Below are positions 26,331 to 45,561 of a stretch of 64,000 nucleotides of DNA, in pieces. Positions within the stretch are counted from its first letter, which is position 1; every line of letters starts with the position of its first letter. The notes below the pieces were generated by a model. The model made no database searches. It saw nothing but the letters and a program-made list of their open reading frames with translations, and was not told the origin of the DNA. Made by a program: the position numbers and the translations under genes. Origin of the DNA: Devosia sp. RR2S18 (GTDB lineage: Bacteria; Pseudomonadota; Alphaproteobacteria; Rhizobiales; Devosiaceae); assembly GCF_030177755.1 (NCBI RefSeq), contig NZ_CP126539.1:1822001-1886000 (forward strand), read 5' to 3'.

Positions 26331-27443
26331 TCAGACGAGACCATTCTTCAACGGCGCAAGCAGTTTGCGGGCAAGGGCGACAATTGCAGTCTTCTTGTAC
26401 CGGCCACCGCTCTGCATGACGCGCGTCCTGAACCATTGACTGAGGGTCGAGTTCGGCTGATGGCGCACCCAGAGCCAGGCAACTTGTACAAGCGTCGATC
26501 GCAGCCGAGGATTGCCGGATTTCGACACCCCTTGCTCATAATTGATCAGGCCACTTTGCCACGGCGTTGGGGCAAGACCTGCGTAAGCGGCGACCTGCCT
26601 TCGGTTGTCGAACTTCCGGGAAAGTCCCTCGGACCACAAGACAGCCGCAAATTCCGGGCCGATACCCTTGAGATTGAGCAACAGCGCCGGTGTGGGCACA
26701 TCTGCCGCAGCGAGCATAGCATCGCGTTCCTCCTCGACGGCCTTGATCTGCTGGATCAGCAACTCGATCCGATCAAGTTCGCGGCTGATCTGTGCCCTGA
26801 GTGCCGGCGGCAACGGCCGTCCATCTCCGGTGGCAAGCAGATCGAGGCACTTGCGTCGGTCGGCCTTCAACGGCTCGTATCCGGCCACGCCTTGGCTGAA
26901 CAGCAGACCCTTTATCCTGTTGACGTGCCTGATCCGCTCGTTCGTCAGCGCCTTTCGCTCGCGCACTAGACGGCGACGATCCTCCTCCTCCGGCGTTGGC
27001 ACCCGCAACATGGCACAAACGCGAGGCTCGCCGCGACTGTAAGCCAGTAAAGCCCGGATGAGTGCCTCGCCGTCGATCCGGTCGGTCTTGGCCCGGCGGC
27101 GGCGGCGTGATGTGGCAATCGACGCCGGGTCGACGACGTAGCTTTCGATACCTTCGCGCCCAAGAACCCGGTGTATCCAGAATCCATCCAAACCGGCCTC
27201 CTGGATGCAAATGATCCGCAAGTTATGTTTCGTTCTTTCTTCCGCCTTGCGTTGCAGTTCAGCGAAGTGGTCGAGCAAACCCGGAACGTCACCCGCCGAC
27301 ACGATGTGTCGTGACATTTTCTCGCCGCGTCCCGGAGAGAGGGACGTCACAAGCCACTTTGAACGAGACAGTTCTAACGAGACAAATATTGCGGCAAGAT
27401 CGACGCGGATTGGGGCCGGAGCTTTGGTGCTGTTGGCTTGCAT
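26331..27443 (-). mobile_element. IS110-family transposase (second element)
   Basis: This 370-residue transposase has an N-terminal DEDD domain: VSLELSRSKWLV, CIQEAGLDGFWIHRVL and AKTDRIDGEALIRALLAYSRG. Its C-terminal Transposase_20 domain has LNLKGIGPEFAAVLWSEGLSR, then VAAYAGLAPTPWQSG. It differs clearly in sequence from the copy at 9725-10660, so the two arrived separately. The frame looks intact. It lies just beyond the broken nnrS and probably caused the truncation. Element ends are not defined because this family lacks terminal repeats. Confidence 0.9.
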
Positions 27444-27862: not shown

Positions 27863-29089
27863 TTAATCTTGATCGGAGTGCCTCGCATAGAGCCGGCTTA
27901 GTGGGGCGGCAGTGATCCCGTGGCAGACGATAGAGGCGCAAACAACGGCGCTAGCGATATACCAGATTGCCGGGTCGCTGGTATGTGCACGGGCGACAGC
28001 GGCGTAGTAGACAGCCGCAATGCCTATGGGGCCGAACCATGACAGATACGTCACATCTTGGAATCTGAGCGGCCTGCGCAGGGCAGGGAGCAACATGAAG
28101 ATGACGGGTGGCCGGCGAAAAATAAGTAAGGCGACGACGGCGGCCAGAAGAGGCCACCCCATCTTGCCCCATTGTTCGAGGGGCAGAGCAATTCCGAAGA
28201 GTACGAACATCGGCAGGGTAAAGAGCTTGGCGACCGCTTCTTGAATATTTTCTTCCTCGTGCTCCTCTTCTCTATCGCTCGACAAATTGAAGACCAGCCC
28301 GGCCAGGAACACTGAGATTAGTGCATCTGCGCCCACCAGCTTAGCCGCACCGAGCGTGAAGAGAGAGAATGCGACCGTGTAGCCGAGCAGCGAGGTGTTC
28401 TCGACGATGTTTCGCTTCTCGGCAAACTCCAGCAGCTTGGCCGCGCCGAATCCGACAATGACGCCAATGACGGCTGCGGTAACCACGCCAATGGCAACGG
28501 ATTCGACCAGCCATTTGGACCATGCCTCGGCGGCGCTGTGCTCGACCATGAAGATGGACAGCATGACGAACAGGTGGGCGAGGCCGTCATTGGCTCCCGC
28601 CTCGAAGGAAAGCGCATCGCGAAGGCGAGCGGGTAGTTTGTTCTTGGCGAAGGGTCCCGTTACGATGGAACTGGCGACCACCGGGTCGGTCGGCGTGACG
28701 ATCGACCCGATGAGCAGTGCACCCCAGAGCGGAAGCCCTAGTGCCCAAGCGGCCACCAACGACGATGCTAGCCACATTCCAAGCATGCCTAAGGTCAGCA
28801 ACCACGCTACCGGTCGCAACAAGACGGCAACGCAGTCCCGCTTTAGGCGTAGCGCCACTCCCATCAACCCGATTGCAAGCGTCAGCCGGGATGTTTGTTC
28901 GAGGATGGCATTCTCGTTGCCCCAATGCTCTATGTTAAGCCAGCCGAGGCCATAAGGGCCCACTGCAACCCCCACCAGCACTGCAATCATCGGTTCTTGA
29001 ACCAGGCTTTTCTTGATGAGCTTGGAGAAAGTCCCGACGAGGATGATCACCAGGGCGATCACCGCCAGCGCTACGTTGAGTTCCTGCAT
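27863..29089 (-). CDS. Na+/H+ antiporter, CPA1 (NhaP) family
   Basis: This protein of about 408 residues has some 12 transmembrane helices. The ND-type ion site is recognisable in FEAGANDGLAHLFVMLSIF (about residues 169-187) and is preceded by GSIVTPTDPVVASSIVTGPF, a CPA1 hallmark. It should exchange protons for sodium or potassium in the inner membrane and would fit the osmotic theme of the betaine genes. The ATG at 29089 is preferred; one four codons upstream is possible. It is divergent from the dehydrogenase/oxidase operon. Confidence 0.88.
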   Translation of the reverse strand: MQELNVALAVIALVIILVGTFSKLIKKSLVQEPMIAVLVGVAVGPYGLGWLNIEHWGNENAILEQTSRLTLAIGLMGVALRLKRDCVAVLLRPVAWLLTLGMLGMWLASSLVAAWALGLPLWGALLIGSIVTPTDPVVASSIVTGPFAKNKLPARLRDALSFEAGANDGLAHLFVMLSIFMVEHSAAEAWSKWLVESVAIGVVTAAVIGVIVGFGAAKLLEFAEKRNIVENTSLLGYTVAFSLFTLGAAKLVGADALISVFLAGLVFNLSSDREEEHEEENIQEAVAKLFTLPMFVLFGIALPLEQWGKMGWPLLAAVVALLIFRRPPVIFMLLPALRRPLRFQDVTYLSWFGPIGIAAVYYAAVARAHTSDPAIWYIASAVVCASIVCHGITAAPLSRLYARHSDQD

Positions 29090-29400
29090 GGCCTCCCTCA
29101 TCGAAAGGTTTGCCGCTCACTGGCGACATTCCTCTTTTGCTGGCAGTCGGAACGCCAACTTCCCCCCTCTGTTCCTGTCTCGTCCTGCATGCCCGGGCAA
29201 GTTTGTGACCTTCGCCCAGAAAGGAGGAGCTTTCCTGGGCCTTGTGCGTTGCGGCTTGGCATAGCCGCGTTCAGAATTCGTTCATGCGGCTAACAGCAGG
29301 AAAAAGGTGGGTTGATCTGCTGAGCTGCACGAGTATCATTCATCCGGTGCTTGATAGTGAAACCAGTGCGGCGAGTTGATATGCGTGTGAGGGTGGTTAC
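29090..29400. other. Divergent promoter region between the antiporter and the dehydrogenase/oxidase operon
   Basis: About 310 bases without a gene. It must hold promoters for both directions, but I could not fix a -35/-10 pair, an anaerobox or an operator with confidence. A GGAAC at 29146-29150 with a TGTT 16 bases on is only a weak EcfG-like match. Confidence 0.5.
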
Positions 29401-30168
29401 ATGGCGGGCTTTATAGTACGTGTCCTGCGTGCGAGCTTGATTTATGTTGCCCTTGGAAGCACTGCGTTATACTCGCAGGCTGCACCACTTGTTCCTGCTG
29501 ATATTCTTGCCAGACCTGCAGATATTGAGAGGGGTCGCGGTATTGCTGTTGGAACTTACTCCGACTCGCCAGCTGGGGCATGCTTTCAGTGCCATGGCCT
29601 GGACGGGGCAGGAGACCGTGCTGCCGCCTTTCCGCGCCTCACCGGTCAGGTGTACCAGTATCTTGTGAAATCCCTGCGTGACTATGCATCCGGTGAGCGG
29701 CAGAGCGCGATCATGGAGCCGATCGCGAAGGCCCTGAGCGAACAGCAAATGCGCGACGTGTCAGCTTTTTACGCTGTGCAATCCGATGCGCCAATGCCGC
29801 CCGCTCCCGAGGTCGAGTATGACCTGCTGCAACTTGGCGGTGCGTTGGCAGCCGTAGGTTCGATGGAGCGGGGTATTCAGGGCTGCATCAACTGTCATGG
29901 GCCTGACGGCAGCGGTCTTGCTCCCAGCTATCCGGCACTCGCAGGGCAGTATGCCCCCTACCTCGAGGCCCAGCTACTGGCCTGGAAGAACGGCACGCGG
30001 GACGGCGACCTCCACAATATCATGAGCTACATTGCGCAAAAGATGACCGATGAGGAGATCCGGGCCGTGTCGATCTACTATGCTTCCATCCGGCCCGATG
30101 GTGCACCTGACCGCGCAGGACTTTGGGAATTCGAGAGTGTGCCCGAGCTTGCAGGAGGTCTTCCATGA
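29401..30168 (+). CDS. Diheme cytochrome c, first gene of the dehydrogenase/oxidase operon
   Basis: This 255-residue exported protein has a signal peptide cleaved near YSQAAP (residue 28) and two cytochrome c domains, with CFQCH at 61-65 and CINCH at 162-166. The second domain closely resembles that of the cytochrome at 33037-33957 (LLAWKNGTRDGD against LLLWKQGLRGGD), so the two are paralogues. It probably accepts electrons from the GMC dehydrogenase or passes them to subunit II of the oxidase. The stop overlaps the next ATG by 4 bases. Confidence 0.88.
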   Translation: MAGFIVRVLRASLIYVALGSTALYSQAAPLVPADILARPADIERGRGIAVGTYSDSPAGACFQCHGLDGAGDRAAAFPRLTGQVYQYLVKSLRDYASGERQSAIMEPIAKALSEQQMRDVSAFYAVQSDAPMPPAPEVEYDLLQLGGALAAVGSMERGIQGCINCHGPDGSGLAPSYPALAGQYAPYLEAQLLAWKNGTRDGDLHNIMSYIAQKMTDEEIRAVSIYYASIRPDGAPDRAGLWEFESVPELAGGLP

Positions 30169-30491
30169 GGTGGCAGAGAAAATGGTTGGGTGCTGTCGGC
30201 GTGGCCAGCTTACTGGGCACCGGTGTAGCGCTGGCGCAGAGCAACAGCGCCGCCAGTAATCTGGAAGGCGGGGGCGAGAGTGGATCGCAGGCCCAGGTCG
30301 CGGCAGTGGGTGCTGGAACTGCCAATGGCGTGACCACCGGTGTCAGTGGTCCCGATCAGGGTGGAGGGGTTCAGCCGGGCGAGTTGCCGCCGCTGCCAGC
30401 CGCTGACTTGTGCTCTGACTATGAAGGCGAGCCTGCCTACGAACACTGCCTGGGATTGGTTTTAGTCGAGGAATGGGGAGACGAACTATGA
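30165..30491 (+). CDS. Small exported protein of unknown function in the dehydrogenase operon
   Basis: I do not recognise this 108-residue protein. It has a signal peptide (GVASLLGTGVALAQS, cleaved near residue 25). A glycine-rich, low-complexity middle (about 30-75) follows. The short C-terminal domain has two cysteines in LCSDYEGEPAYEHCLGL, spaced to form a disulfide or hold a cofactor. It is coupled by 4-base ATGA overlaps to the genes on both sides. That is strong evidence that it is translated and belongs to the dehydrogenase complex, perhaps as a small scaffold or linker. Confidence 0.7.
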   Translation: MRWQRKWLGAVGVASLLGTGVALAQSNSAASNLEGGGESGSQAQVAAVGAGTANGVTTGVSGPDQGGGVQPGELPPLPAADLCSDYEGEPAYEHCLGLVLVEEWGDEL

Positions 30492-31255
30492 GCGAGGGAC
30501 TATCCCGCCGCGACTTACTAAAGGCAGCCGGCCTCGGTGGCGCCGCTGCTGTAATTCCAGGTGTGTCGCAAGCGCAAGTGCCGGTGGAGCCCGTTGTGAA
30601 TCCCGTCGCCGAAGGCTTGGCGGGAGCGGCAAATCCCACGCCGGTTGGTCTCTTGTTCTTCTTCAATGACGAAGAGGCTCAGTTCGTTGAGGCCGCGGTC
30701 GAGCGATTGATCCCCAGTGACCCCGAATGGCCGGGAGCCGGGCAGGCGGGCGTGCTTTATTACATCGATCGTCAGCTAGCCTCGGCTTATGGCGCAGGTG
30801 GCCGCATGTATCTCAATGGCCCCTGGGATCCATCCGCGCCACCGCAGTTCGGCTATCAACTGCGACAGAGTCCGGCCGAACTGTACCGCATAGGCATTGC
30901 GGAAACGCGACAATTTGCTCGTGATCAGTTTAACCAGCGGGAAGTCTGGGACCTCGGTCCTGCTGACATGGATCGGGTTCTCGAGGCACTCGAATTCGGA
31001 GATGCAGCCCTGCCGTCGATTCCGAGTCCGGTCTTCTTCGAGACGCTTCTCGCCAACACCATCGAGGGCTACTTCGGCGATCCGGCCTATGGGGGAAATC
31101 GCGACATGGTCGGCTGGCGCATGGTGGGGTTCCCCGGCGCCTACGCCGCCTACATCGACGCCATCGACAATTATGGGGTGGCGTTCGAACGCCGGCCGAT
31201 CAGCTTCGCCGACCAGCAGGCGCGGCATGATCACATACACGGACACGGGCACTGA
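30488..31255 (+). CDS. Gluconate 2-dehydrogenase subunit 3-like (small Tat-exported subunit)
   Basis: This 255-residue protein starts at ATG 30488 with a twin-arginine leader (SRRDLLKAAGLGGAAAVIPG). The body matches the gluconate 2-dehydrogenase subunit 3 family: FFNDEEAQFVEAAVERLIPSD, then FYGDPAYGGN-like FGDPAYGGNRDMVGWRMVGFPG near residues 200-221. In related sugar and alcohol dehydrogenases this subunit carries the flavoprotein through the Tat system. The C-terminus is His-rich (HDHIHGHGH). It lies 15 bases before the flavoprotein gene. Confidence 0.88.
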   Translation: MSEGLSRRDLLKAAGLGGAAAVIPGVSQAQVPVEPVVNPVAEGLAGAANPTPVGLLFFFNDEEAQFVEAAVERLIPSDPEWPGAGQAGVLYYIDRQLASAYGAGGRMYLNGPWDPSAPPQFGYQLRQSPAELYRIGIAETRQFARDQFNQREVWDLGPADMDRVLEALEFGDAALPSIPSPVFFETLLANTIEGYFGDPAYGGNRDMVGWRMVGFPGAYAAYIDAIDNYGVAFERRPISFADQQARHDHIHGHGH

Positions 31256-31270
31256 GGGAGAATTTAGCCA

Positions 31271-33034
31271 ATGGCCACGCGCGCAAAGCCGGTCGATGTC
31301 GTTCTTGTCGGGGGCGGATTAACCGCATCCATTCTGGGCAAGGAGTTGGCTGAGGCCGGACGCACGGTGGTGGCTTTGGAGCGCGGTCAGATGCGCGACA
31401 CGGTTCCGGACTTCCAGTCCCCAACCATGCACGACGAGCTAAAGTACGACGTGCGCTACGGGCTGGCGCAGGATGTCAGCGTACAAACACTTAGCTTTCG
31501 CAATCTGGTCGGACAGCGGGCGCTCCCCATGCGCCAACTCGGATCTTTTCTGCCGGGCGAGGGCGTCGGTGGCGGCGCAGTGCACTGGAACGGGCAGACC
31601 TGGCGATTTCAACCCGAATGGTTTCGGCTGCGGTCTTGGGTTAACGAGCGCTATGGCGCAAACTTTCTTGCCGAGGATGTGACTATCCAGGACTGGGGGA
31701 TCACCTACGAGGAGCTGGAGCCGTATTACGCACATTTCGAGCGAGTGATGGGAATTGGCGGTCTTCCCTTTGCCGACGGTGATACAGTGCTAGGGGGCGG
31801 TAACCCCTTCGAGGGTCCGCGGAGCACCCCTTATCCCAATCCTCCGATGAAGCAGTCCTATTCGGGAGCGCTCTTTGAGGATGCCGCAGCGCGGCTGGGA
31901 TATCATCCATTCCCAGTACCGTCAGCCAATATGACGCGGCACTACACCAATCCTTTCGGCGCCGAGTTGCAGCCCTGCATGTATTGCGGCTTTTGCGAAC
32001 GCTTCGGCTGCGAGCACTTCGCCAAAGCAAGTCCGCAGGTGAACATTCTGCCATTCGCCATGGCAAATCCAAACTTCGAGATGCGCACCCACGCCTATGT
32101 GCAACGCATTGAGTGGGACGCCGAGGCCAAGGTGGCGACCGGAGTGACCTACGTAAACGCCGGTGGCGAAGAGATCTTTCAGCCGGCGGGGATGGTGGTG
32201 CTCTGCGCCTTCGCACACCACAATCCGGTGCTGATGCTGCAATCAGGTATTGGCAACGCCTATAACCCGGAAACTCGTCGAGGAACGGTGGGACGGAACT
32301 ACACCTATCAGACCATGACAGGCGTCGACGTGTTCTATGACGACGGGCGCCGGATTAATCCCTTTATGGGAGCAGGAGCTCTAGGCACTGCGATCGACGA
32401 CTTCAACAATGGCAGCATGGACCATTCGGGTCTGGGTTTCATCGGCGGGGGCTATGTCGCGGCCTACCAGACCAATGGTCGACCAATCAAGTTCCACCCA
32501 GTTCCACCCGGCACGCCGCGCTGGGGCGCCGACTGGAAGCAGGCGGTGCGTCGCTACTACAACAGCACCGTCGGTCTCACCTTTCATGGCTCGTCAGTGC
32601 CGCATCCCAACAACTACATCGGCCTTGATCCCACCTATACCGACGCGTTCGGTCAGCCGTTGGGTATGCTGACTTACGACTTCCCGCACAATGACCGGCT
32701 GATGGCCCGCTATATCACGGACAAAGTGCGTGAGATCGCTCTCGCCATGGGTGGTGACCAGATCTCGGTTGGCTGGCTGGACGACCACTACAGCATCGTG
32801 CCCTACCAGACGACGCACAACACGGGCGGCGCCATCATGGGCACAGACCCCGAGACCAGCGTGGTCAACCGCTATCTACAATCCTGGAACCTGCACAATT
32901 TGTGGGTCATGGGCGCGAGCGTCTTCCCGCAGAACGCCGGCTACAACCCAACCGATACAGTCGGGGCGCTAGCCTACTGGGCCGCCGACGCGATGCTGAA
33001 CCAATATATGAGCAACCCACGACCCTTGGTGTAG
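31271..33034 (+). CDS. GMC-family flavin dehydrogenase, large subunit
   Basis: This 587-residue FAD enzyme has a nucleotide-binding fold at the N-terminus (VLVGGGLTASILGKELAEAG). Late motifs YQTTHNTGGAIMG and FPQNAGYNPTDTVGALAYW carry the active-site histidine and asparagine region of gluconate/sorbitol/glucose dehydrogenase large subunits. A loop with Cys236, Cys239, Cys242 and Cys247 (CMYCGFCERFGC) resembles the iron-sulfur loop of FAD-dependent glucose dehydrogenases. It has no signal peptide and should be carried out by the preceding Tat subunit. The substrate is unknown (polyol, sugar or alcohol). Electrons should pass to the adjacent cytochromes. Confidence 0.88.
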   Translation: MATRAKPVDVVLVGGGLTASILGKELAEAGRTVVALERGQMRDTVPDFQSPTMHDELKYDVRYGLAQDVSVQTLSFRNLVGQRALPMRQLGSFLPGEGVGGGAVHWNGQTWRFQPEWFRLRSWVNERYGANFLAEDVTIQDWGITYEELEPYYAHFERVMGIGGLPFADGDTVLGGGNPFEGPRSTPYPNPPMKQSYSGALFEDAAARLGYHPFPVPSANMTRHYTNPFGAELQPCMYCGFCERFGCEHFAKASPQVNILPFAMANPNFEMRTHAYVQRIEWDAEAKVATGVTYVNAGGEEIFQPAGMVVLCAFAHHNPVLMLQSGIGNAYNPETRRGTVGRNYTYQTMTGVDVFYDDGRRINPFMGAGALGTAIDDFNNGSMDHSGLGFIGGGYVAAYQTNGRPIKFHPVPPGTPRWGADWKQAVRRYYNSTVGLTFHGSSVPHPNNYIGLDPTYTDAFGQPLGMLTYDFPHNDRLMARYITDKVREIALAMGGDQISVGWLDDHYSIVPYQTTHNTGGAIMGTDPETSVVNRYLQSWNLHNLWVMGASVFPQNAGYNPTDTVGALAYWAADAMLNQYMSNPRPLV

Positions 33035-33036
33035 CG

Positions 33037-33957
33037 ATGACAGTTCGGCTGACACACATCGGAGTTGGCGCGGCGCTGCTGGCCTTGGTTAGTCTGCCAT
33101 TGCCGGTCGCCTCGCAGGGGCCTTTGGGGGATCTGGGCACAGACTCGCCTGATGCCGTCTCGATTGACGATGTCAATCATGGGCGGTTTACCGCCATGGG
33201 CGGCATCTTTGGAGACCAGCGCATCGACTGCATCCGCTGCCATGGACTGGATGGCATGGGCAACAGCAGTGGCGCGTTCCCGCGCTTGGCAGGTCAGAAT
33301 GCCTGGTATCTCTACAAGACCCTGACGGACTACGCGGCGGGACGTCGGCCAAGCGAAGTGATGGTGCCAATTGCACGCAGCATGACCGATCAAGAAATGC
33401 GCGAGGTCGCGGCCTATTATGCCTCGATTGTCGAGGAAAGACCGTATGAACCGCCTGAGGCAGATATGCAGGTGCTGCAAATTGGCGGGGCCATCGCGGC
33501 GGTCGGGCTGCCGCGCCAGGGCGTACCGGCCTGCTCCAGTTGCCACGGCGCCAATGGCGAAGGACTGCCGCCGGTAAACCCAGCCCTCGCCGGTCAGTTC
33601 GCCCCCTATCTTGAACATCAATTGCTGCTCTGGAAACAGGGACTCAGGGGCGGCGACCCGATGGACGTAATGGCCCGCATCGCTTCGTCCATGACTGAAG
33701 AGCAGATCCGGGCCGTGTCGCTCTATTACGGATCGGTCGTTACAGCCGACTGGTTGACCGACGCCGAGGCAGAAGCACTGGCGCCGGTGGTGGCTGAGGA
33801 GATCACGCCCGTTATTCCGGTGGTTCCCCTGGTTCCGGAGACTGCCGCACCAGGCGCTGGCTTCGCCCCGAACGTGCTGCCGCCTTATCTACCGGTATTC
33901 GAAGATGAGGTCCCTTCAGCGCCCGCTGAGATGCCCGAACCCTTGGCTGGCCAATGA
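33037..33957 (+). CDS. Diheme cytochrome c subunit with proline-rich tail
   Basis: This 306-residue exported cytochrome has a signal peptide cleaved near PVASQG (residue 27) and heme c motifs CIRCH at 65-69 and CSSCH at 166-170. The last 65 residues are low-complexity, rich in Pro, Val and Glu, with no membrane helix; this could be a flexible tether or docking arm. It is a paralogue of the cytochrome at 29401. The ATG follows the flavoprotein stop after 2 bases and the stop overlaps the next gene, so it is a likely electron-transfer subunit of the dehydrogenase. Confidence 0.88.
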   Translation: MTVRLTHIGVGAALLALVSLPLPVASQGPLGDLGTDSPDAVSIDDVNHGRFTAMGGIFGDQRIDCIRCHGLDGMGNSSGAFPRLAGQNAWYLYKTLTDYAAGRRPSEVMVPIARSMTDQEMREVAAYYASIVEERPYEPPEADMQVLQIGGAIAAVGLPRQGVPACSSCHGANGEGLPPVNPALAGQFAPYLEHQLLLWKQGLRGGDPMDVMARIASSMTEEQIRAVSLYYGSVVTADWLTDAEAEALAPVVAEEITPVIPVVPLVPETAAPGAGFAPNVLPPYLPVFEDEVPSAPAEMPEPLAGQ

Positions 33958-34346
33958 AGGCTTGGGGGCGAATAGGCAGAGGGAAGAGAGGTATGCTGCT
34001 GCTCGCCGCAGGGTTTGGTCTGGCCGCCTGCCAATCAGCAGTGCCGGTGCAGCAGCAGATTGTCGACGCGAACCCGGAGCGCGGCCGCCAGGCCATTACT
34101 GCCATCGGCTGTGGAGCTTGCCACGAAATTCCAGGCGTGCAGGGCGCCCACGGCATCGTCGGTCCCTCTCTCGAGGACTTCGGCCAACGTCAGCTCATCG
34201 GCGGTGTGCTGCCCAACGAGCCCACGGTGCTGATCCGCTGGGTCGAGAACGCCCCTTCGCTTATCCCCGAGACCGGCATGCCGGATCTCCCGCTTTCCCA
34301 AGATCAGGCCCGCGATATAGCGGCCTATCTTTATACGCTGCGATAG
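33954..34346 (+). CDS. Monoheme cytochrome c lipoprotein
   Basis: This 130-residue protein has a lipoprotein signal peptide with the lipobox LAAC (Cys26) and a single heme c motif CGACH at 53-57. A methionine axial ligand is available in TGMPDLPLS near residue 107. Membrane anchoring by lipid would place it between the dehydrogenase cytochromes and the oxidase. It overlaps the previous gene by 4 bases and precedes coxB by 10. Its cytochrome domain resembles that of oxidase subunit II, so it may have arisen from it. Confidence 0.87.
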   Translation: MKAWGRIGRGKRGMLLLAAGFGLAACQSAVPVQQQIVDANPERGRQAITAIGCGACHEIPGVQGAHGIVGPSLEDFGQRQLIGGVLPNEPTVLIRWVENAPSLIPETGMPDLPLSQDQARDIAAYLYTLR

Positions 34347-34356
34347 GACAAGGGCG

Positions 34357-35310
34357 ATGTGGGACTGGCCCAACCTGACAGAAGGCATCCAATCAGCGCT
34401 TGCTCCGGCGGGCCCTCATGCTGGCTGGGTTGCGCATCTGAGCTGGCTAATTTTTATCGGCGGCGGTCTCATCTTGCTCGTCGTCGTCGTGATGGCAGCT
34501 CTGGCCATGTTCGCCCCGGAGCGATTCCGTAGGGCCATCGGGCAACGCCGCACTGTGATTATCGGCGGTGTTGCTTTCCCCTTTTTCACGCTTACGGCCC
34601 TGCTGATCTATGGCTTGAGCGGATCGAGCGGGCTGGTCACATTCGGTCCGCCGGCCTTGCGGGTGGAGGTCGTGGGCGAGCAGTGGTGGTGGCGCGTCCA
34701 CTACCTGGATGCGGAAGGTGAGACGCGACTAACTACGGCCAACGAAATCCGCATTCCCACCGGAATGCCGATCGAATTCGTGCTCAAGTCCGCTGATGTG
34801 ATCCATAGTTTCTGGGTGCCGAGCTTAGCGGGCAAGCTCGACATGATCCCAGGTCGCATCAACTCCTATCGCTTTGCCGCCGACAAGCCAGGTGTTTACC
34901 GGGGACAGTGCGCCGAGTTTTGCGGTGAACAGCACGCTCTTATGGCCTTCTACGTGGTGGCGATGGAGCAGGACGAATTCGAGCTCTGGTATGCCGACCA
35001 AGTCCAGCCCGCTCCCGAGCCCACACTGGCCCAACTGGAACAAGGCCGCGAACTCTTTCTGGCCAATGGCTGTGGGGCCTGTCACACCATTCGGGGAACC
35101 CCGGCTGATGGCTTAATTGGGCCGGACCTCACCCATGTGGGCGGTCGGCTGTCGCTCGCGGCGGGCGTGTTGCCGAACAATGTGGGCACTCTGGCAGGCT
35201 GGATATCCTCAGCTCAGCACCTGAAGCCTGAGAACAAGATGCCTTCCTTCGGCAATCTCAGGGGCACCGAACTGCGCGCCATAGCCGCCTATCTGGAGAA
35301 CCTTAAGTGA
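34357..35310 (+). CDS. coxB: Cytochrome c oxidase subunit II with fused cytochrome c (caa3 type)
   Basis: This 317-residue subunit has two N-terminal transmembrane helices and a cupredoxin domain with the full CuA ligand set (His150, Cys185, Cys189, His193, Met196). A C-terminal cytochrome c domain carries CGACH at 239-243 and a methionine in NKMPSF near 296. The fusion defines a caa3-type oxidase, which can take electrons without a separate soluble cytochrome. The 4-base overlap with the next gene couples translation of subunit I. Confidence 0.95.
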   Translation: MWDWPNLTEGIQSALAPAGPHAGWVAHLSWLIFIGGGLILLVVVVMAALAMFAPERFRRAIGQRRTVIIGGVAFPFFTLTALLIYGLSGSSGLVTFGPPALRVEVVGEQWWWRVHYLDAEGETRLTTANEIRIPTGMPIEFVLKSADVIHSFWVPSLAGKLDMIPGRINSYRFAADKPGVYRGQCAEFCGEQHALMAFYVVAMEQDEFELWYADQVQPAPEPTLAQLEQGRELFLANGCGACHTIRGTPADGLIGPDLTHVGGRLSLAAGVLPNNVGTLAGWISSAQHLKPENKMPSFGNLRGTELRAIAAYLENLK

Positions 35311-37895
35311 GCGACAAGACAAGGGAAGGCGGCATCGCGGATACACGGCAGCAGGCGCCTGCGACCGAGATTGAATACCCCAACAGCCTGCCGCGTCCGG
35401 CGGAAGAGTTGGAGAAGCTCGAAAAAGTCTGGGAGCCCCCGCGCGGCTTCCGCATGTTCTCGGCCGTGAACAACAACTATGTCGGCGTCTACTATGTTGG
35501 CGCCTCGTTCCTGTTCTTCATTCTGGCCGGCGTCCTGGCGTTGATTGTACGCACCCAGCTGGCAGTGCCTGAAAACGAGCTTGTTGGACACGAACTCTAC
35601 AACCAGCTCTTCACCATGCACGGCACGGTGATGATGTTCCTCTTCGCTGTGCCGGCTGTGGAGGCAATGGGTGTCCTGCTACTGCCCAACATGCTGGGCG
35701 CCCGGGATCTGCCGTTTCCGCGGCTGAGCGCCTATGCGTTCTGGGCCTATTTCGCCGGCGGGTTGGCATTCTTTTGCAGCATCTTCTTTGGGCTCGCCCC
35801 TAATGGCGGCTGGTTCATGTATCCGCCGCTGACCAGCATGGAGTTTTCGCCCGGCCTCAACGCCGACTTCTGGCTCCTGGGTATCGGCTTCATTGAAATT
35901 TCCGCGATCGCGGGCGCTATCGAGATCATCGTTGGGATTATGAAAACGCGTGCCCCGGGCATGTCGCTCGACAAGCTACCTGTTTATGCCTGGGCCATGT
36001 TGGTCTTCGCCGGTATGATCGTTTTTGGCTTTCCCGCGGTCATTTTGGCCACCGCACTGCTCGAGCTTGAACGGGCTTTCGACTGGCCGTTTTTTCTCGC
36101 CGACCGGGGAGGCGACCCAGTTCTTTGGCAGCACCTCTTCTGGTTCTTTGGCCATCCCGAGGTCTACATCATCTTTTTGCCCGCGGCGGGCATGGTGTCC
36201 ATGATAGTTCCGGCAATGGCCCGCACGCCACTGGTGGCTTACCGGCTGGTTGTCCTGGCCTTGCTGGCGACTGGGTTTCTGAGTTTCGGGCTCTGGGTGC
36301 ACCACATGTACACCACCGGTATCCCGCCACTCAGCTTAAGCTTCTTTTCAGCGGCAAGCATGGCTGTGGCAATCCCCAGTGGTATTCAGGTATTCGCCTG
36401 GATCGCTACATTTGCCGCAGGCAGGATCCAGTTCAAAGTGCCGACGCTCTTTGTTCTGGGGTTCCTCTTTATCTTCACGCTAGGCGGACTGACCGGCGTC
36501 ATGGTGGCGCTCGTGCCGTTCGACTGGCAGGCGCACGACACCTACTTCGTCGTGGCGCACCTCCACTACGTCCTGATCGGCGGCATGGTATTTCCCCTTT
36601 TTGCCGCCTTCTACTACTGGATCCCAATTGTCAGCGAGCGGCCGCTCTCGGAGCGGCTCGGAAAATGGGTGTTCTGGCTGCTCTTTATCGGCGTCAACGT
36701 CACCTTCTTCACCATGCATATAACCGGTCTCGCCGGGATGCCGCGCCGGGTCTATACCTACCCGGAGAATGTCAGCTGGGGTGCCCTGAACATGGTCTCC
36801 ACGCTGGGCAGCTACATGATCGCAGCTGGCGTGCTGGTGTTTGTCATCGACATGTTCAGAAATTTTCGCCCCTTCACCGGCAAGAACGCAGGAAATGTGT
36901 GGAATGCCGGCACGTTGGAATGGCTGCCGAGTGGCAATTACCAGACGCGCAGCATTCCCCATGTCACCAGTCGCGAGCCCCTCTGGGACCAGCCTAAGCT
37001 TGCACATGATGTGGTGGCCGGGCGGTATTATTTGCCGGGGGCGCCTACCGGCGGCCGTGAGACCATCATCACCAGCCCAATCGACGCGCGCCCGCAGTAC
37101 CTGCTGAAACTGCCCGGCTCAAGCTGGGGACCGTTCCTGGGTGCCTTGTTCACGGCTGCCTTCTTCATGAGCTTGGTGGTTAAGCTCTATATGGTGGGGT
37201 TAGCGCTTGGGGCGCTGGCGATTGCGATGATCATCTGGTGGATGTGGGACACCGACCCTGAGACGCGAGACCACCCGATCAAAGTTGGCGACGAAGTCGA
37301 GTTGCCAATCAACGTCGTTGGTCCAGCCAGCCATTCCTGGTGGGGCACGGTGGTGCTGATCTTGGTGGGGGCGACGCTGTTCACCTGTCTGGTGTTCTCC
37401 TATCTCTATCTTTGGCTGGTCAATGGAGAGATATGGCTGCCGGAAACGCACCAGTTGCCAGAGTTAGTCTGGTTCGTCGTGCCGACAGCGCTTTTTTTGG
37501 CCAGCAGCGCTGCTGTGGTGTTTGCCGGTCGGCAGGCAAGTCAGCTTCCTCGGGTCAATCCGTGGTTCTTGCGCGCAGCCGTGTTCCTCGCCATCCCGCT
37601 GATGATGGCAGGTCTAGCTACAGCGATCTATGCTGACTGGCATGTTGGACTGCGGCCTAGCGAAAGCAGCTATGGAGCGGTCGTCTACATGTTCAGCGTC
37701 GTCCAGGGGGTGTATGTTGCGGCGCTGACGCTGATGGGGCTCTTTGTTCTCGCCCGCTCGCTAACCGGGCGGCTCTCGGCCAGCCGCAGGGCCAGTTTGG
37801 ACAACACGGCGCTGCTCTGGCACTACATGACTGCCCAGGGTGTGATCGGGCTAACGCTGACCCATTTCTTTCCCCGATTGATGGGACTGAGCTGA
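35307..37895 (+). CDS. coxA: Cytochrome c oxidase subunit I fused to subunit III
   Basis: This 862-residue protein joins subunits I and III. Residues about 30-560 form the catalytic heme-copper core: the low-spin heme histidine in HGTVMMFLFAVP, the CuB/Tyr region WFFGHPEVYIIFLPAAG, WVHHMYTTGIP, and HDTYFVVAHLHYVLIGG with heme a3 and CuB histidines. A linker of about 100 residues and two extra helices lead to a subunit III domain (about 660-862). Such I+III fusions are known in caa3 and ba3-like oxidases. Heme A synthesis and CuA assembly genes are not in the window. Confidence 0.94.
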   Translation: MSDKTREGGIADTRQQAPATEIEYPNSLPRPAEELEKLEKVWEPPRGFRMFSAVNNNYVGVYYVGASFLFFILAGVLALIVRTQLAVPENELVGHELYNQLFTMHGTVMMFLFAVPAVEAMGVLLLPNMLGARDLPFPRLSAYAFWAYFAGGLAFFCSIFFGLAPNGGWFMYPPLTSMEFSPGLNADFWLLGIGFIEISAIAGAIEIIVGIMKTRAPGMSLDKLPVYAWAMLVFAGMIVFGFPAVILATALLELERAFDWPFFLADRGGDPVLWQHLFWFFGHPEVYIIFLPAAGMVSMIVPAMARTPLVAYRLVVLALLATGFLSFGLWVHHMYTTGIPPLSLSFFSAASMAVAIPSGIQVFAWIATFAAGRIQFKVPTLFVLGFLFIFTLGGLTGVMVALVPFDWQAHDTYFVVAHLHYVLIGGMVFPLFAAFYYWIPIVSERPLSERLGKWVFWLLFIGVNVTFFTMHITGLAGMPRRVYTYPENVSWGALNMVSTLGSYMIAAGVLVFVIDMFRNFRPFTGKNAGNVWNAGTLEWLPSGNYQTRSIPHVTSREPLWDQPKLAHDVVAGRYYLPGAPTGGRETIITSPIDARPQYLLKLPGSSWGPFLGALFTAAFFMSLVVKLYMVGLALGALAIAMIIWWMWDTDPETRDHPIKVGDEVELPINVVGPASHSWWGTVVLILVGATLFTCLVFSYLYLWLVNGEIWLPETHQLPELVWFVVPTALFLASSAAVVFAGRQASQLPRVNPWFLRAAVFLAIPLMMAGLATAIYADWHVGLRPSESSYGAVVYMFSVVQGVYVAALTLMGLFVLARSLTGRLSASRRASLDNTALLWHYMTAQGVIGLTLTHFFPRLMGLS

Positions 37896-37896
37896 G

Positions 37897-38262
37897 ATGC
37901 GGGAGCAAACATTCTTCAAGCCGCTGTTTGTAACCGTCTCGGGCTTGCTGATCTGGGCGGCACACTTCACGGTCATTTATGCAGTGAATGCGCTTGCGTG
38001 CGAACGGCTCTGGATGGCTCAGCGGATCTTTGGCATGGGACTGGTGCCGTTCCTCATCCTCATGGCTACCTTGGTCGCAGCGGGTACACTGGCCGTCATC
38101 GGTGTGCTCGCCTTTCTCAATCGAACGCCAAGCTTGCCCGATGCCGCCAATGAGCGCACCACAATCTTTCTGCGTAAGGTGACGATCACCGTTCTAGCAC
38201 TGTCATTTGTGGCGGTGATCTACCAGACCATCCCTGCCTTCATTGTACCGGCGTGCGGATAG
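37897..38262 (+). CDS. Small three-helix membrane protein after the fused oxidase subunit
   Basis: This 121-residue protein starts one base after the coxA stop. It has three hydrophobic segments (about residues 8-35, 45-73 and 89-117) and conserved-looking NALACERLW and TIPAFIVPACG ends. It is probably an accessory or subunit-IV-like component of the oxidase. No heme or metal motif is visible. It closes the operon; the next gene is 125 bases away. Confidence 0.72.
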   Translation: MREQTFFKPLFVTVSGLLIWAAHFTVIYAVNALACERLWMAQRIFGMGLVPFLILMATLVAAGTLAVIGVLAFLNRTPSLPDAANERTTIFLRKVTITVLALSFVAVIYQTIPAFIVPACG

Positions 38263-38317
38263 GTGTGCGGCTAGAGTTGCTCCGGTGCGAAGTAAAACCA
38301 ACTGGTTCAAACAACAC

Positions 38318-38342
38318 GGAACAACTGGGAGCGGCTCTGGTT
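38318..38342 (+). promoter_or_regulatory. Possible EcfG-type promoter
   Basis: GGAAC at 38318-38322 is followed after 16 bases by GGTT at 38339-38342, close to the GGAAC-N16-CGTT consensus of alphaproteobacterial general-stress sigma factors. It lies 45 bases before the small gene at 38388. Confidence 0.4.
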
Positions 38343-38387
38343 AAGGTGGTGTCCGCAGGGGCGGAACGAACCTAAAATGGAATTGAG

Positions 38388-38570
38388 ATGCCAGCACAAG
38401 ATAGGATTAGCCGTCGTACGATGGGCTACATCGTAGGCGGCGCTGTTGCCCTGGTCGCGATCGTTATAGTGGCCTTGATGTTTCAAGTGACCGAGCCTGA
38501 TGGGGTGCCGGCTCCCGGCCCTGTACCCTCTGCGGATGACCCCAATCCCGTCGAGGAACTGCTGCCTTAG
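38388..38570 (+). CDS. Small single-helix membrane protein
   Basis: This 60-residue protein has a basic start (RISRRTMGY), one transmembrane helix at about residues 14-34 and a short acidic, proline-rich tail ending DDPNPVEELLP. I do not recognise a family. An EcfG-like promoter lies just upstream, and the codon pattern and membrane layout suggest a real small stress or envelope protein. Confidence 0.5.
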   Translation: MPAQDRISRRTMGYIVGGAVALVAIVIVALMFQVTEPDGVPAPGPVPSADDPNPVEELLP

Positions 38571-38900
38571 CAGCTGAATAGCTGTTGCTCGAGCCCAACG
38601 GAGCACGATTTCGCGCACGCATCATTTCAGTTTGGGTGAACACGATGTTATGTGCATCAAGTAGCTGCGGCTTCGCTTGCATGCATGGGTTCAACCAGTT
38701 CATTGTCGTGGGCTGGCTTGGACAACCAACGCCCGTTTAGATCGGACAGCATTTCCAACTTAGGATGGTCCGAGACTATCCCGGAACCATCATTGGTAGC
38801 TCCCGTTGGCCAGATGTAAGGTCCGGCGCTCAGACGGTAAAATTGCAGTTCTCGTCATGATCCGGCGTCGGGCCAATCAGGACACAGAAGGAGGATTGCA
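38571..38900. other. Intergenic region before the DUF3309 gene
   Basis: About 330 bases with no gene I can support. Its main feature is the EcfG-type promoter at 38783-38807. A minus-strand open frame crosses it but has no family resemblance and no ribosome-binding site. Confidence 0.5.
38783..38807 (+). promoter_or_regulatory. EcfG-type general-stress promoter
   Basis: GGAAC at 38783-38787 and CGTT at 38804-38807 are separated by exactly 16 bases, a full match to the GGAAC-N16-CGTT consensus for EcfG sigma factors. It lies 94 bases before the DUF3309 gene ATG. Confidence 0.65.
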
Positions 38901-39104
38901 ATGGGCTTCTGGCTCCTACTGCTGCTGATCGTGCTGTTGATCGCCACACTCCCGACATATCCACACAGCCGGGGTTGGGGATACGGTCCTGCCGCTGTCG
39001 TCGCTTTTCTATTCCTGATCTGGCTTGTTGCCGTTTGGATCGGCTGGCTTGCTTTTGCTTGGCCGTGGACTGCCGCACCTGCCGTTACAACACCGGTCAC
39101 TTAG
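38901..39104 (+). CDS. DUF3309 small membrane protein
   Basis: This 67-residue protein matches the DUF3309 pattern: a hydrophobic start (LLLLLIVLLIATLPTYPHS), then a GWGYGP turn and a second helix. Proteins of this type are widespread in alphaproteobacteria, without a known function. AAGGAGGATTGC precedes the ATG. The EcfG-type promoter upstream fits a general-stress gene. The next gene starts 15 bases after the stop and may be co-transcribed. Confidence 0.8.
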   Translation: MGFWLLLLLIVLLIATLPTYPHSRGWGYGPAAVVAFLFLIWLVAVWIGWLAFAWPWTAAPAVTTPVT

Positions 39105-39119
39105 CGGCGGGAGCACATC

Positions 39120-39551
39120 ATGCAGGTCAAGCAATTGTCCAATACCGATGGCCGCAGCTTTGCCATCGTTCTCTCGGAAGGCGAGGAGGCGGTAAGCTGT
39201 CTCACGGACTTCGCCCGGGAGCATCATGTGGATGCCGGGCGGTTCAACGCTCTAGGAGCCTTCAGCAGCGTTACTCTGGGGTTCTTCGATTTTGACAAGC
39301 GCGACTACGAGCGCATCGTCCTTGATGAGCAGGTCGAGGTACTGACTCTGGTCGGGAATTTCTCCACTTTCGAGAACGAGACCAAGCTCCACCCTCATGT
39401 GGTGATTGGCAAGCGCAACGGGCAGGCATTCGGTGGCCATTTGCTGGAGGGCTTTGTAAAGCCGACGCTCGAGATTGTCGTGGTGGATGAGCCGACCCAT
39501 CTGCGGCGGCAGACCGATCCCAAGACGGGTCTGCCCCTGCTGGTGCTCTGA
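39120..39551 (+). CDS. PPC/DUF296-domain protein
   Basis: This 143-residue protein is a stand-alone PPC (DUF296) domain. Visible family features are DGRSFAIVLSEGEEAVSCLTDFA, the FNALGAFSSVTLGFFD strand pair, LVGNFS and HPHVVIGKRNGQAFGGHLLEG with the conserved histidines. In bacteria these form trimers that may bind a metal, and their role is unclear. It lies between the stress-type small protein and the enolase-superfamily gene, with a 9-base gap to the latter. Confidence 0.85.
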   Translation: MQVKQLSNTDGRSFAIVLSEGEEAVSCLTDFAREHHVDAGRFNALGAFSSVTLGFFDFDKRDYERIVLDEQVEVLTLVGNFSTFENETKLHPHVVIGKRNGQAFGGHLLEGFVKPTLEIVVVDEPTHLRRQTDPKTGLPLLVL

Positions 39552-39560: not shown

Positions 39561-40652
39561 GTGAGGGCTCATGTGAACAGTGTCGCCGTCTCGGCCTACA
39601 GGATCCCTACGGCAACGGCTGAGTCCGATGGTACACTGGAGTGGGATGCTACCACTCTGGTGTTGGTCACGCTGGAGGCGGGCGGCAAGACAGGCACTGG
39701 GTATACCTATGCCGATCGAGGCACGGCTGCGCTTATCCATGATCTTCTCGGTGATGTGCTTCGGGGGCGGGACGCGTTCGACATCCCGGGGTGCTGGGCC
39801 GCGATGGTACAGCGCACGCGAAACCTCGGTCGACCAGGCGCCGCCTCCATGGCGATAGCGGCCTGTGACGTCGCCTTGCACGACCTTAAGGCCAGGCTGC
39901 TCGACGTGCCGCTCGCATCTCTTCTGGGTCAGAGCCGCGACAGCGTCCCCCTTTATGGCAGCGGCGGTTTCACCTCCATGTCGGACGCCGAACTGGTTGA
40001 GCAACTAGAGGGGTGGGCCGAAGAGGGCCTCAAGGCGGTGAAGATGAAAGTCGGCCGGCAGCCGGAGCAGGATATTGGCCGAGCCCGGATCGCCCGCAGC
40101 GCCGCCGGCGACGGCGTGGAATTGTTCGTCGATGCCAATGGCGCCTATTCCAGGAAGCAGGCGCTTGCCATGGCTGAGGGTTTCGCCGAGTTGGGGGTGA
40201 CCTGGTTCGAGGAGCCGGTTTCGTCAAACGACCTCGATGGCTTGCGCCTACTGCGCGACCGAGGTCCCGCGGGCATGGCCATTTCGGCGGGAGAGTATGG
40301 CTACGACAGTCCTTATTTCCGGCGCATGCTCGCGGCCGGCGCCGTTGATGTGCTGCAGGCCGATGCCACACGATGCGCTGGTATAACCGGCTTCTTGCAA
40401 GCGGATGCGCTGGCCGCCGCCTTTGAGGTGCCGTTGTCCAGCCACACGGCGCCGAACCTGCATCTTGCCTGTTGTTGTGCGGCTCACCGCATCGAGAACA
40501 TGGAGTGGTTTTTCGACCACGTGCGGATCGAGAACATGCTCTTCGAGGGCGCCGTGCAGCCTCGAGCCGGCAAACTTGCACCTGATCTCGACAGGGCCGG
40601 GCTGGGTTTGGAGTTCAGGCACGCGGATGCAGAGCAATATTTGGTTTCGTAG
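39561..40652 (+). CDS. Enolase-superfamily (mandelate racemase/muconate lactonizing) enzyme
   Basis: This 363-residue enzyme has the two-domain MR/MLE layout. Catalytic and metal residues are visible: the KxK base in VKMKVG near residue 160, metal ligands in FVDANG near 192, WFEEP near 217 and SAGEYG near 244, and a histidine in SSHTAPNLHLA near 295. These abstract a proton alpha to a carboxylate, as in acid-sugar dehydratases. The substrate cannot be read from sequence. The start is a GTG at 39561. Neighbouring oxidoreductases suggest a sugar-acid or hydroxy-acid pathway. Confidence 0.88.
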   Translation: MRAHVNSVAVSAYRIPTATAESDGTLEWDATTLVLVTLEAGGKTGTGYTYADRGTAALIHDLLGDVLRGRDAFDIPGCWAAMVQRTRNLGRPGAASMAIAACDVALHDLKARLLDVPLASLLGQSRDSVPLYGSGGFTSMSDAELVEQLEGWAEEGLKAVKMKVGRQPEQDIGRARIARSAAGDGVELFVDANGAYSRKQALAMAEGFAELGVTWFEEPVSSNDLDGLRLLRDRGPAGMAISAGEYGYDSPYFRRMLAAGAVDVLQADATRCAGITGFLQADALAAAFEVPLSSHTAPNLHLACCCAAHRIENMEWFFDHVRIENMLFEGAVQPRAGKLAPDLDRAGLGLEFRHADAEQYLVS

Positions 40653-40701
40653 GGCGGTGGGTCCGGTGAGGAGGCGTCCGTTGTAACGATGAGGAGGGAA
40701 A

Positions 40702-43668: not shown

Positions 43669-43791
43669 GCGGCAGCGTTAACCTGCGGCGGGCTCTGCAG
43701 CGATCGGAACCCACTGCACAGCGATCTGTTGGACCCATGGACTGTCGTGCGGGCAGCCAATCGGGAGAAGCAAGGCACGGAGGAAAAGACG

Positions 43792-45561
43792 ATGGCCAAG
43801 ACTGTTTCAGATTTCATGTTTGACCGGCTCACCGAATGGGGCGTCAAGCAGATCTACGGTTTCCCCGGCGATGGCATCAACGGCATACTCAGCGCGCTTG
43901 ATCGGGCCAAGGACCGGTTCAACTTCGTCCAGACGCGGCACGAGGAATCAGCAGCGTTTATGGCTTGCGGCCATGCCAAATACTCCAGCGAACTGGGCGT
44001 GTGCCTTGCTACATCAGGTCCTGGCGCCATTCATCTGCTGAACGGGCTCTATGACGCCAAGCTCGATCACCAGCCGGTGCTCGCCATCGTGGGACAGCAG
44101 GCCCGCGCAGCTCTAGGCGGCCACTACCAGCAGGAAGTCGATCTCAAGAACCTCTTCAAGGACGTGGCCTCCGAATACGTGGAGGTCTGCATGGACCCGA
44201 CGCAGATGCGGCACCTCGTAGACCGCGCTGTTCGTATTGCGATCTCGATGCGCACCGTCACCTGCATCATCGTGCCTAACGATGTGCAGGAGCTCGACGC
44301 CGTCGAGACGCCGCCGCGCAAACATGGCACGATTCATTCCGGGGTTGGCTATCGGGCTCCACGCGTGGTTCCCGAAAAGGTAGATCTCCAGGAAGCTGCC
44401 AACATCCTCAACAATGGCGAGAAGGTCGCCATGCTTGTGGGGGCCGGCGCGCTCGGCGCGACTGATCAGGTTATCGAAGTCGCCGAAGTGCTTGGCGCAG
44501 GCATTGCCAAAGCTCTCCTCGGGCGTGCAGCCGTTCCCGACGATCTGCCCTTCGTGACCGGTCAAATGGGCCTTCTGGGCACCAAACCTTCTGACCAGAT
44601 GATGCAGAATTGCGATACCCTGCTGATGGTGGGCACGAGCTTCCCATACTCAGAGTTCCTGCCCAAGGAAGGGCAAGCCAAGGCGGTTCAGATCGACATC
44701 GACCCGCGCATGCTGTCGCTCCGCTATCCCATCGACGTCAACCTCGTGGGCGACTCGGCTGCGACCTTGCAGACCCTGCTGCCGCTCCTCCGGCGGAAGG
44801 AAGATCGCTCCTGGCGCCAGGATATCGAAAAGCAAGTCGCCGACTGGTGGGACGACGTCGATAAACGCTCCGAACTGGAAGCCGACCCGATCAACCCCGA
44901 ATTCCTGTTCCGTGAACTGTCGCCCCGATTGCCCGACAATGCAATTATCAGCGCGGACTCCGGTACATCGGCGAACTGGTTCGCCCGCGCTCTCAAGCTG
45001 CGCCGCGGCATGATGGCGTCTCTCTCGGGCAATCTCGCTACCATGTGTCCCGGCGTACCCTACGCGACGGCAGCCAAATTCGCGCATCCTGATCGAGTGT
45101 CCATCGCGTTTGTCGGGGATGGCGCCATGCAGATGTTGGGGATCAATGGCCTCATCACAGTCGCCAAGTACTGGCAGCAGTGGAGTGACCCTCGCCTGGT
45201 GATTGCGGTCCTGAACAATCACGACCTAGCCCAGGTGACCTGGGAGCAGCGGGCACTGGCCGGTTCGCGCAAGACCGAGCTGACCCAGAACGTGCCAGAC
45301 TTCTCCTATGCGAGCTACGCCGAGTCTCTGGGTCTGCGCGGCATCAAGGTCGACAAGCCCGAGCAGGTTGGCCGTGCCTGGGATCAAGCCCTATCGTCGG
45401 ATCGGCCTTGTGTAATCGACGCTCGAGTGGATGCGAACGTCCCAACCCTGCCGCCCCACATCAGCTTCGATCAGGCCAAGAGCTATGCAACGGCGCTCAC
45501 CAAAGGCGATCCCAATGCCGGAGCCATCGTGTGGCAAACGCTCAAACGGGTGTTCACCTAG
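43792..45561 (+). CDS. ThDP-dependent enzyme, pyruvate oxidase/dehydrogenase (cytochrome) type
   Basis: This 589-residue enzyme has three thiamine-diphosphate domains. The catalytic glutamate lies in RHEESAAFMA (about residues 50-59), the central FAD/cofactor domain spans about 190-330, and the ThDP motif GDGAMQMLGINGL...NNHDLAQ lies near 442-475. It is closest in layout to PoxB-type pyruvate:quinone oxidoreductases, but acetolactate-synthase-like and oxalyl/sulfo-substrate relatives share these motifs. The ATG at 43792 follows GGAGGAAAAGACG. Together with the preceding flavoprotein it suggests quinone-linked oxidation of 2-keto and hydroxy acids. Confidence 0.85.
   Translation: MAKTVSDFMFDRLTEWGVKQIYGFPGDGINGILSALDRAKDRFNFVQTRHEESAAFMACGHAKYSSELGVCLATSGPGAIHLLNGLYDAKLDHQPVLAIVGQQARAALGGHYQQEVDLKNLFKDVASEYVEVCMDPTQMRHLVDRAVRIAISMRTVTCIIVPNDVQELDAVETPPRKHGTIHSGVGYRAPRVVPEKVDLQEAANILNNGEKVAMLVGAGALGATDQVIEVAEVLGAGIAKALLGRAAVPDDLPFVTGQMGLLGTKPSDQMMQNCDTLLMVGTSFPYSEFLPKEGQAKAVQIDIDPRMLSLRYPIDVNLVGDSAATLQTLLPLLRRKEDRSWRQDIEKQVADWWDDVDKRSELEADPINPEFLFRELSPRLPDNAIISADSGTSANWFARALKLRRGMMASLSGNLATMCPGVPYATAAKFAHPDRVSIAFVGDGAMQMLGINGLITVAKYWQQWSDPRLVIAVLNNHDLAQVTWEQRALAGSRKTELTQNVPDFSYASYAESLGLRGIKVDKPEQVGRAWDQALSSDRPCVIDARVDANVPTLPPHISFDQAKSYATALTKGDPNAGAIVWQTLKRVFT

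Follow-up and report, generated by a model that had tools for sequence, protein, structure and literature searches.

Organic alcohols are usually respired via quinone and the cytochrome bc1 complex. The closest described systems are summarized here as excerpts of the respective papers present them. Complexes of the fructose dehydrogenase (FDH) and glucose dehydrogenase (GDH) type have a triheme layout, and their beta subunit receives electrons from the catalytic subunit (PMC5979317). The rus operon of Acidithiobacillus ferrooxidans encodes a whole chain, in which a dihemic cytochrome c4 links the primary donor to an aa3 oxidase (PMC2754497). Cytochrome c oxidase (COX) operons of type a-II contain pyrroloquinoline quinone (PQQ) dehydrogenases (Degli Esposti 2014; PMC4013037). 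Here we describe nine genes at positions 29401-38262 of a 64,000-nucleotide stretch of Devosia sp. RR2S18 (the window; positions 1822001-1886000 of a 3.97 Mb genome in a single contig), which encode a flavin dehydrogenase of the GMC family, several cytochromes c and a caa3-type oxidase. Gene content, conservation, motifs, predicted fold and cytochrome kinship were computed. On this basis we consider it probable, with some reserve, that the operon forms a dedicated and short aerobic chain, located in periplasm and inner membrane, that is independent of quinone and bypasses bc1.

All nine genes lie on the plus strand. The order is a diheme cytochrome c and putative electron carrier (gene 1, 29401..30168), a small secreted protein with two cysteines (gene 2, 30165..30491), a small subunit of the Gluconate_2-dh3 family with a twin-arginine translocation (Tat) signal (gene 3, 30488..31255), the catalytic GMC dehydrogenase subunit, which is predicted to bind flavin adenine dinucleotide (FAD) (gene 4, 31271..33034), a second diheme cytochrome c (gene 5, 33037..33957), a monoheme cytochrome c that is probably a lipoprotein (gene 6, 33954..34346), oxidase subunit II with CuA and a cytochrome c domain (gene 7, 34357..35310), subunit I fused to a subunit III-like part (gene 8, 35307..37895, with a GTG start) and a small membrane protein (gene 9, 37897..38262). 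An earlier sequence-only reading of this DNA had described a co-directional set with 4-base overlaps or gaps under 16 bases, and the spacings bear this out: from gene 1 to gene 9 they are -4, -4, 15, 2, -4, 10, -4 and 1 bases. Family searches also agree with its assignments of the GMC dehydrogenase, the Tat-type small subunit, the cytochromes and the CuA subunit II. Its three cytochromes c are two dihemes and one monoheme by CxxCH count; with the domain of subunit II, the operon holds six such motifs. The possibility that separate internal promoters split the set had been raised as well. A sigma-70-like scan of 29050-39200 yielded a single site, at 29312..29339 (plus strand), that precedes gene 1. 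One site is below the chance mean of 3.6, so this result carries little weight.

The dehydrogenase belongs to a well-described type. Gene 3 matches PF13618 (Gluconate_2-dh3, E 4e-28), PF10518 (TAT_signal) and TIGR01409, all over cut-off, which makes it a hitchhiker subunit with a Tat signal. Gene 4, with its GMC_oxred_N and GMC_oxred_C domains, falls in the FDH/GDH branch of catalytic subunits, and its nearest sequences and folds are the membrane-bound fructose dehydrogenase and glucose dehydrogenase. Residues H105, H516 and N559 are invariant in 37/37 aligned rows and align with FDH residues that, in the excerpted text of PMC6719666, have the roles of FAD-linking His and His/Asn catalytic pair; gene 4 is predicted to have both. 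From the fold, the substrate class is suggested to be a sugar or polyol, and no more than that. Four further residues, C236, C239, C242 and C247, are invariant cysteines. In the same excerpts GDH has C212, C218 and C222, a different spacing, and a disulfide between its small and large subunits, for which gene 3, with zero cysteines, has no counterpart (PMC6719666).

The cytochrome partner differs from that of the FDH/GDH type. By the CxxCH counts of the nine proteins there is no triheme subunit in the operon; there are two dihemes instead. Both match PF00034 (in two stretches in gene 1), carry CxxCH at residues 61 and 162 (gene 1) and 65 and 166 (gene 5), and are 51% identical to each other over 191 residues. 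Gene 6 matches PF00034 too, has one CxxCH and a Cys26 in a lipobox-like GLAAC, and shares 45% identity with the cytochrome domain of subunit II (gene 7). We counted CxxCH motifs in the open frames adjoining each extracted GMC gene, in 61 rows that are not independent and include one 28% paralogue and one duplicate contig. A two-CxxCH frame lies directly 3' of the GMC gene in 17/17 close relatives and in 0/42 distant rows. In the distant rows the downstream frame is a triheme in 25 cases, has one CxxCH in 6 and none in 11; the last group includes six Bhargavaea (Bacillota) and two rows that end at or near the GMC gene. One distant row, an uncultured Verrucomicrobia contig (L022), has a two-CxxCH frame upstream of its GMC gene.

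The dihemes look as if they come from the oxidase's side. Compared with 15 three-CxxCH proteins, found in 20 stretches around relatives of the fused subunit I gene (coxAC), genes 1 and 5 give median scores of 115 and 118 bits; compared with 25 clade-B trihemes, the medians are 24 and 31 bits (22/25 and 25/25 gave any alignment). From their gene position, the 15 proteins presumably donate electrons to their oxidases. Both dihemes thus resemble cytochromes encoded near related caa3 oxidases, and not the clade-B trihemes. In the genome itself, we found no full-length relative of a clade-B triheme and one partial match (residues 31-280 of 409). The sequence-only reading had proposed that electrons flow directly to cytochromes, and this part gains support from the missing triheme and the kinship of the dihemes. 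With caa3-kin cytochromes in the place of the triheme, we infer that quinone and bc1 are bypassed.

Oxidase and dehydrogenase also stay together in related bacteria. Scanning the genome collection by pattern, an approach that reaches no further than close relatives, gave 27 loci. When 297 genomes of the order were searched with the GMC at E 1e-100, 30 matches, including the window's own, came from 28 genomes. We worked with 17 distinct relatives whose GMC is about 64% identical or more (L006-L019, L021, L063 and L064; L065 was treated as the same contig as L017, as each has 378,869 bases). Genes for subunit II (coxB) and the fused subunit I (coxAC) lie downstream of the GMC gene on the same strand in 14 of them: nine Microvirga loci from eight strains, a Bauldia metagenome-assembled genome (MAG), a Hydrogenophilales MAG, a Chelativorans and two further genomes. 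Hence, the idea that such dehydrogenases are never next to the oxidase is contradicted. In a further relative (L018) the contig ends before the oxidase. Some of the smaller genes were not found everywhere: gene 1 is missing in L018, at the contig start, and in L019; gene 2 in L016, L017 and L018; and gene 9 in L064. The full array occurs in 0/26 order loci with a GMC of at most 57% identity; in six of these, a coxAC relative of some kind lies in the roughly 9 kb of flanking sequence that was fetched. This GMC type is rare, since only 1/385 genomes of a class sample matched at E 1e-235, the window's own. In a genus sample 13/75 genomes matched at E 1e-30, the other 12 being only 28-32% identical, so that the operon GMC occurs in 1/75 genus genomes. 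The recurrence of the block in related bacteria suggests that its parts work together. Conserved order, together with the exchange of the triheme for oxidase-side cytochromes, makes a cytochrome-linked dehydrogenase most likely. On a Thermus thermophilus plasmid (L151) a Gluconate_2-dh3/GMC pair occurs with a GMC 58% identical, and no CxxCH frame of at least 90 residues lies within 3 kb downstream of it.

The oxidase is of the caa3 type. Gene 7 matches COX2 and Cytochrom_C, passes the cut-off of TIGR02866, and carries the motif CAEFCGEQHALM, read as CuA, plus one CxxCH; a CuA subunit II with a fused cytochrome c is a feature of family A1. Gene 8 passes the cut-off of TIGR02891 and has GHPEVY, which we take to be a marker of caa3-type family A1 COX1. 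Of the proposed fusion of subunits I and III, the COX1 part stands (E 3e-145) and the subunit III part is soft: the C-terminal match to PF00510 (COX3) has E 0.011, below cut-off, and a simple hydropathy scan gives 12 + 5 hydrophobic segments, five of them beyond COX1. Many, though not all, oxidases of family A1 have such a COX1-COX3 fusion. Gene 8 keeps the D-pathway aspartate. We rejected the D-pathway residues as a hallmark of the operon, because Ser, Thr or Gly replaces the first N of the canonical NN across the fused COX1 family, where the segment is shown; there, Ser, Thr or Gly is followed by Ala or Ser, and gene 8 reads DLPFPRLSA. As a separate observation, a Sulfitobacter plasmid (L153) has, near 4279 on the minus strand, a coxB-like frame without the CuA Cys residues and motif His, which adjoins a fused COX1 and a GMC pair.

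In the chain that we propose, gene 3 would carry the cytoplasmically folded FAD subunit out via the Tat route, and this subunit would oxidize an alcohol, probably sugar- or polyol-like. From FAD, electrons would reach an Fe-S cluster at the surface, bound by the cysteines C236-C247, and continue to the two dihemes (genes 5 and 1) and then to the lipoprotein cytochrome (gene 6). They would next enter subunit II by its cytochrome domain, go on to CuA and end on oxygen at subunit I, which would pump protons. The putative cluster itself, and each of these steps as well as their order, are inferred from the features described above.

Several observations weigh against this chain. The cysteine spacing of gene 4, unlike that of the GDH 3Fe-4S site, leaves the type of the cluster, and even its presence, uncertain. 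Towards its end, gene 5 has a single stretch of borderline hydrophobicity, so contact with the membrane is possible. Two of the 17 relatives lack an intact array. In Aquabacter spiritensis (L015), coxB is present (region 12712-13622), its stop overlapped by a short frame, and no coxAC relative was found in the fetched 21.8 kb, with a relative of gene 6 upstream on the other strand. In Tranquillimonas (L016), relatives of the oxidase and of gene 6 lie upstream of the GMC gene, and coxAC is split into two frames. Besides the operon, the genome encodes a cytochrome c1 (bc1) and three more COX1 proteins, so the caa3 oxidase could take electrons from elsewhere. Moreover, this oxidase mostly lives without a GMC: coxAC matched in 42/297 genomes of the order at E 1e-200, and among the nine places at least 60% identical, three (the window's own, G158 and G230) are in this operon.

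Stretches L122-L127 cover the remaining six places. Five have a three-CxxCH protein, four have a 354-residue frame between coxB and coxAC, and in two of them blastp labelled a gene 9-like frame. The 354-residue frame occurs in L123, L125, L126, L127 and L158 and resembles a Sinorhizobium meliloti gene (L158) that its annotation labels a sodium:calcium antiporter. Among five plasmid records, the S. meliloti locus adjoins a molybdopterin dehydrogenase and a Bosea locus (L157) a sorbosone dehydrogenase family gene. The impression, without a count behind it, is that the oxidase looks like a general module sometimes near periplasmic dehydrogenases.

One could argue that the dehydrogenase feeds a general periplasmic cytochrome c pool and that the caa3 enzyme is a general oxidase that shares the operon for the sake of co-regulation. 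The dehydrogenase would then be cytochrome-linked, with genes 1 and 5 as its electron-transfer subunits, and not dedicated. The presence of bc1 and three further COX1 genes, the caa3 relatives without a GMC in the fetched stretches, and Aquabacter, which keeps dehydrogenase and coxB without coxAC nearby, all speak for this. Yet coxB and coxAC stay downstream in 14/17 relatives, and the dihemes are kin to cytochromes near related caa3 genes. We therefore regard such an arrangement as rather unlikely, while giving it serious weight.

Quinone is the acceptor of fructose dehydrogenase. The closest sequences and folds of gene 4 are the membrane-bound FDH and GDH, which would suit a dehydrogenase that reduces quinone, directly or via another subunit, next to an oxidase that is a mere neighbour. 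However, the operon has no triheme, the genome offers the partial match only, and the neighbourhood is kept across several families; we consider quinone reduction improbable.

The surroundings of the operon fit a horizontally gained island. A flanking antiporter gene and FAD/4Fe-4S genes each occur in 1/75 genus genomes at strict limits, and an IS110 transposase adjoins at 26331-27443. That the main role of the operon is to remove oxygen or substrate, or overflow oxidation, and not energy supply, as a niche trait on such an island, is in line with these genes and with the rarity of the operon GMC in the genus. But the CuA motif, GHPEVY and the D-pathway aspartate, which we take to be features of an energy-conserving oxidase, are all retained, and we think this reading very improbable.

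How often the two parts were joined is a question for the trees. The operon GMCs form one clade, with a support of 98 in a tree with 18 operon rows, and of 98/99 in a second tree as well as 97% of 200 bootstrap trees with 15 operon rows. For coxAC a single operon clade is rejected (approximately unbiased test, p 6e-71; p 7e-5 with the long row L019 removed; a support of 0% in 200 bootstrap trees), and for coxB it is not rejected (p 0.42 and 0.45). Operon rows branch in broadly equal order in the GMC and coxAC trees. A single joining, after which the dehydrogenase was lost, is thus as good an explanation as several joinings, and we claim neither an ancient joining nor repeated ones. Rows were left out of all trees: from the GMC tree with 18 operon rows 9/61 (L065, the 28% paralogue, five Bhargavaea near-copies and two partial rows), from the GMC bootstrap tree 15/61 and from the GMC tree with the Verrucomicrobia test 14/61; from the coxAC trees 6/50 (first), 7 (p 6e-71), 8 (without L019) and 15 (bootstrap); and from the coxB tree 4/48.

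The Verrucomicrobia contig (L022) adds a second case, the only one that looks independent. On one strand it encodes a diheme cytochrome c, a short CuA subunit II, a COX1 with HGIVYFW, which we take to be B-type-like, another diheme cytochrome c, SCO1, a Gluconate_2-dh3 protein and a GMC that is cut by the contig end. This GMC lies outside the operon clade (p 0.031). It is suggestive of a dehydrogenase pair that was joined independently to a different oxidase, although this is one MAG contig and misassembly is possible. It is conceivable, although we lean slightly against it, that the quinone-linked FAD/Fe-S sugar-type dehydrogenase was rebuilt repeatedly into an oxidase-linked one, by discarding the triheme and using the oxidase's donor cytochromes. 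This would yield a transferable, self-contained chain from substrate to oxygen, possibly a supercomplex; the oxidase would be of the caa3 type in Proteobacteria and, by a separate origin, B-type-looking in Verrucomicrobia.

Two small proteins complete the operon. Gene 2 is conserved in relatives and matches no family at E 0.001 (the best at a looser limit has E 0.69); VGA.T.....T.G.SG, P.LP and two Cys are conserved in the 13 relatives aligned with it, and in the loci searched its family was detected only beside these dehydrogenases. Gene 9 has three hydrophobic segments and is a possible accessory subunit. It has no family match, at the looser limit included, while W20, Y28, C35, F91, L102, S103 and C120 are invariant in 14/14 aligned rows. 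Its structure model (predicted local distance difference test, pLDDT, 71.1; predicted template modelling score, pTM, 0.51) is too weak for a fold search.

For a clue to the substrate, we clustered the flanking open reading frames in the window and in 16 further loci. Apart from operon genes, CtaG, located after gene 9, is the only cluster common to 12 loci, with two of the 12 matches partial or weak; it has no counterpart in the window. Clusters in at most six loci were annotated for two only (DUF2254 and PRC-barrel), and a catabolic gene shared within Microvirga is possible among them. The MR/MLE, FAD/4Fe-4S and thiamine pyrophosphate (TPP) genes at 39561-45561 of the window, considered as substrate indicators, were set aside because none has a counterpart cluster in the 16 loci. 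Elsewhere in the window, a cbb3 oxidase set (COX1, FixO and a FixP-like cytochrome) with a DUF2189 protein and a heavy-metal P-type ATPase lies at 12000-18704 on the minus strand, between the IS110 transposases at 9725-10705 and 26331-27443.

If our interpretation is true, nine genes form a compact respiratory module, a unit from substrate to oxygen that seemingly moves between lineages. The subunit swap also lets one compare, in nature, how a single flavoenzyme type connects to different acceptors, a matter of interest for FDH- and GDH-based enzyme electrodes.

The sequence-only reading knew of no described system with this exact set. As to kind this is too strong, since the excerpted descriptions of the rus operon (PMC2754497) and of COX operons with PQQ dehydrogenases (PMC4013037) precede it. 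For the exact nine-gene set, we found no description among the matches listed in the open-access literature (25/572 and 20/104 in two lists), a scope that most subscription journals fall outside and in which some of the searches addressed the enzyme and not the operon. The main-text excerpts of PMC6431628, on alphaproteobacterial oxidase operons, contain no word starting with dehydrogenase or GMC, and PMC6515984 was dropped as a precedent, as its excerpts name a GMC protein and make no such link.

How, then, does the operon compare with its closest counterparts? Compared with the fructose dehydrogenase of Gluconobacter and the FAD glucose dehydrogenase of Burkholderia cepacia, dihemes of other kinship replace the triheme. 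GMC-less caa3 operons of Hyphomicrobiales and Azospirillum are alike in having a subunit II with cytochrome c and a COX1-COX3-like fusion, often a triheme and in some cases a gene 9-like frame, but they have no Gluconate_2-dh3/GMC pair in the fetched stretches, and in some of them a gene resembling an exchanger stands between coxB and coxAC. Among the nine proteins, family searches found neither a Cyc2/rusticyanin donor nor a PQQ dehydrogenase of the sort frequent in type a-II; the only donor-type enzyme is the GMC flavoenzyme. Like type a-II, the operon places a periplasmic-type dehydrogenase gene within a COX operon, although there a PQQ enzyme goes with a COX1-COX4 fusion, whereas here a GMC flavoenzyme goes with COX1 followed by a part that weakly matches COX3. 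Like the rus operon, it brings together a donor enzyme, a diheme cytochrome and an oxidase in a single array of genes. In Acidithiobacillus ferrooxidans, however, Fe(II) is the donor via Cyc2 and rusticyanin, and subunits I and III are separate genes; here the two are fused-like, and an organic substrate would enter via a flavoenzyme.
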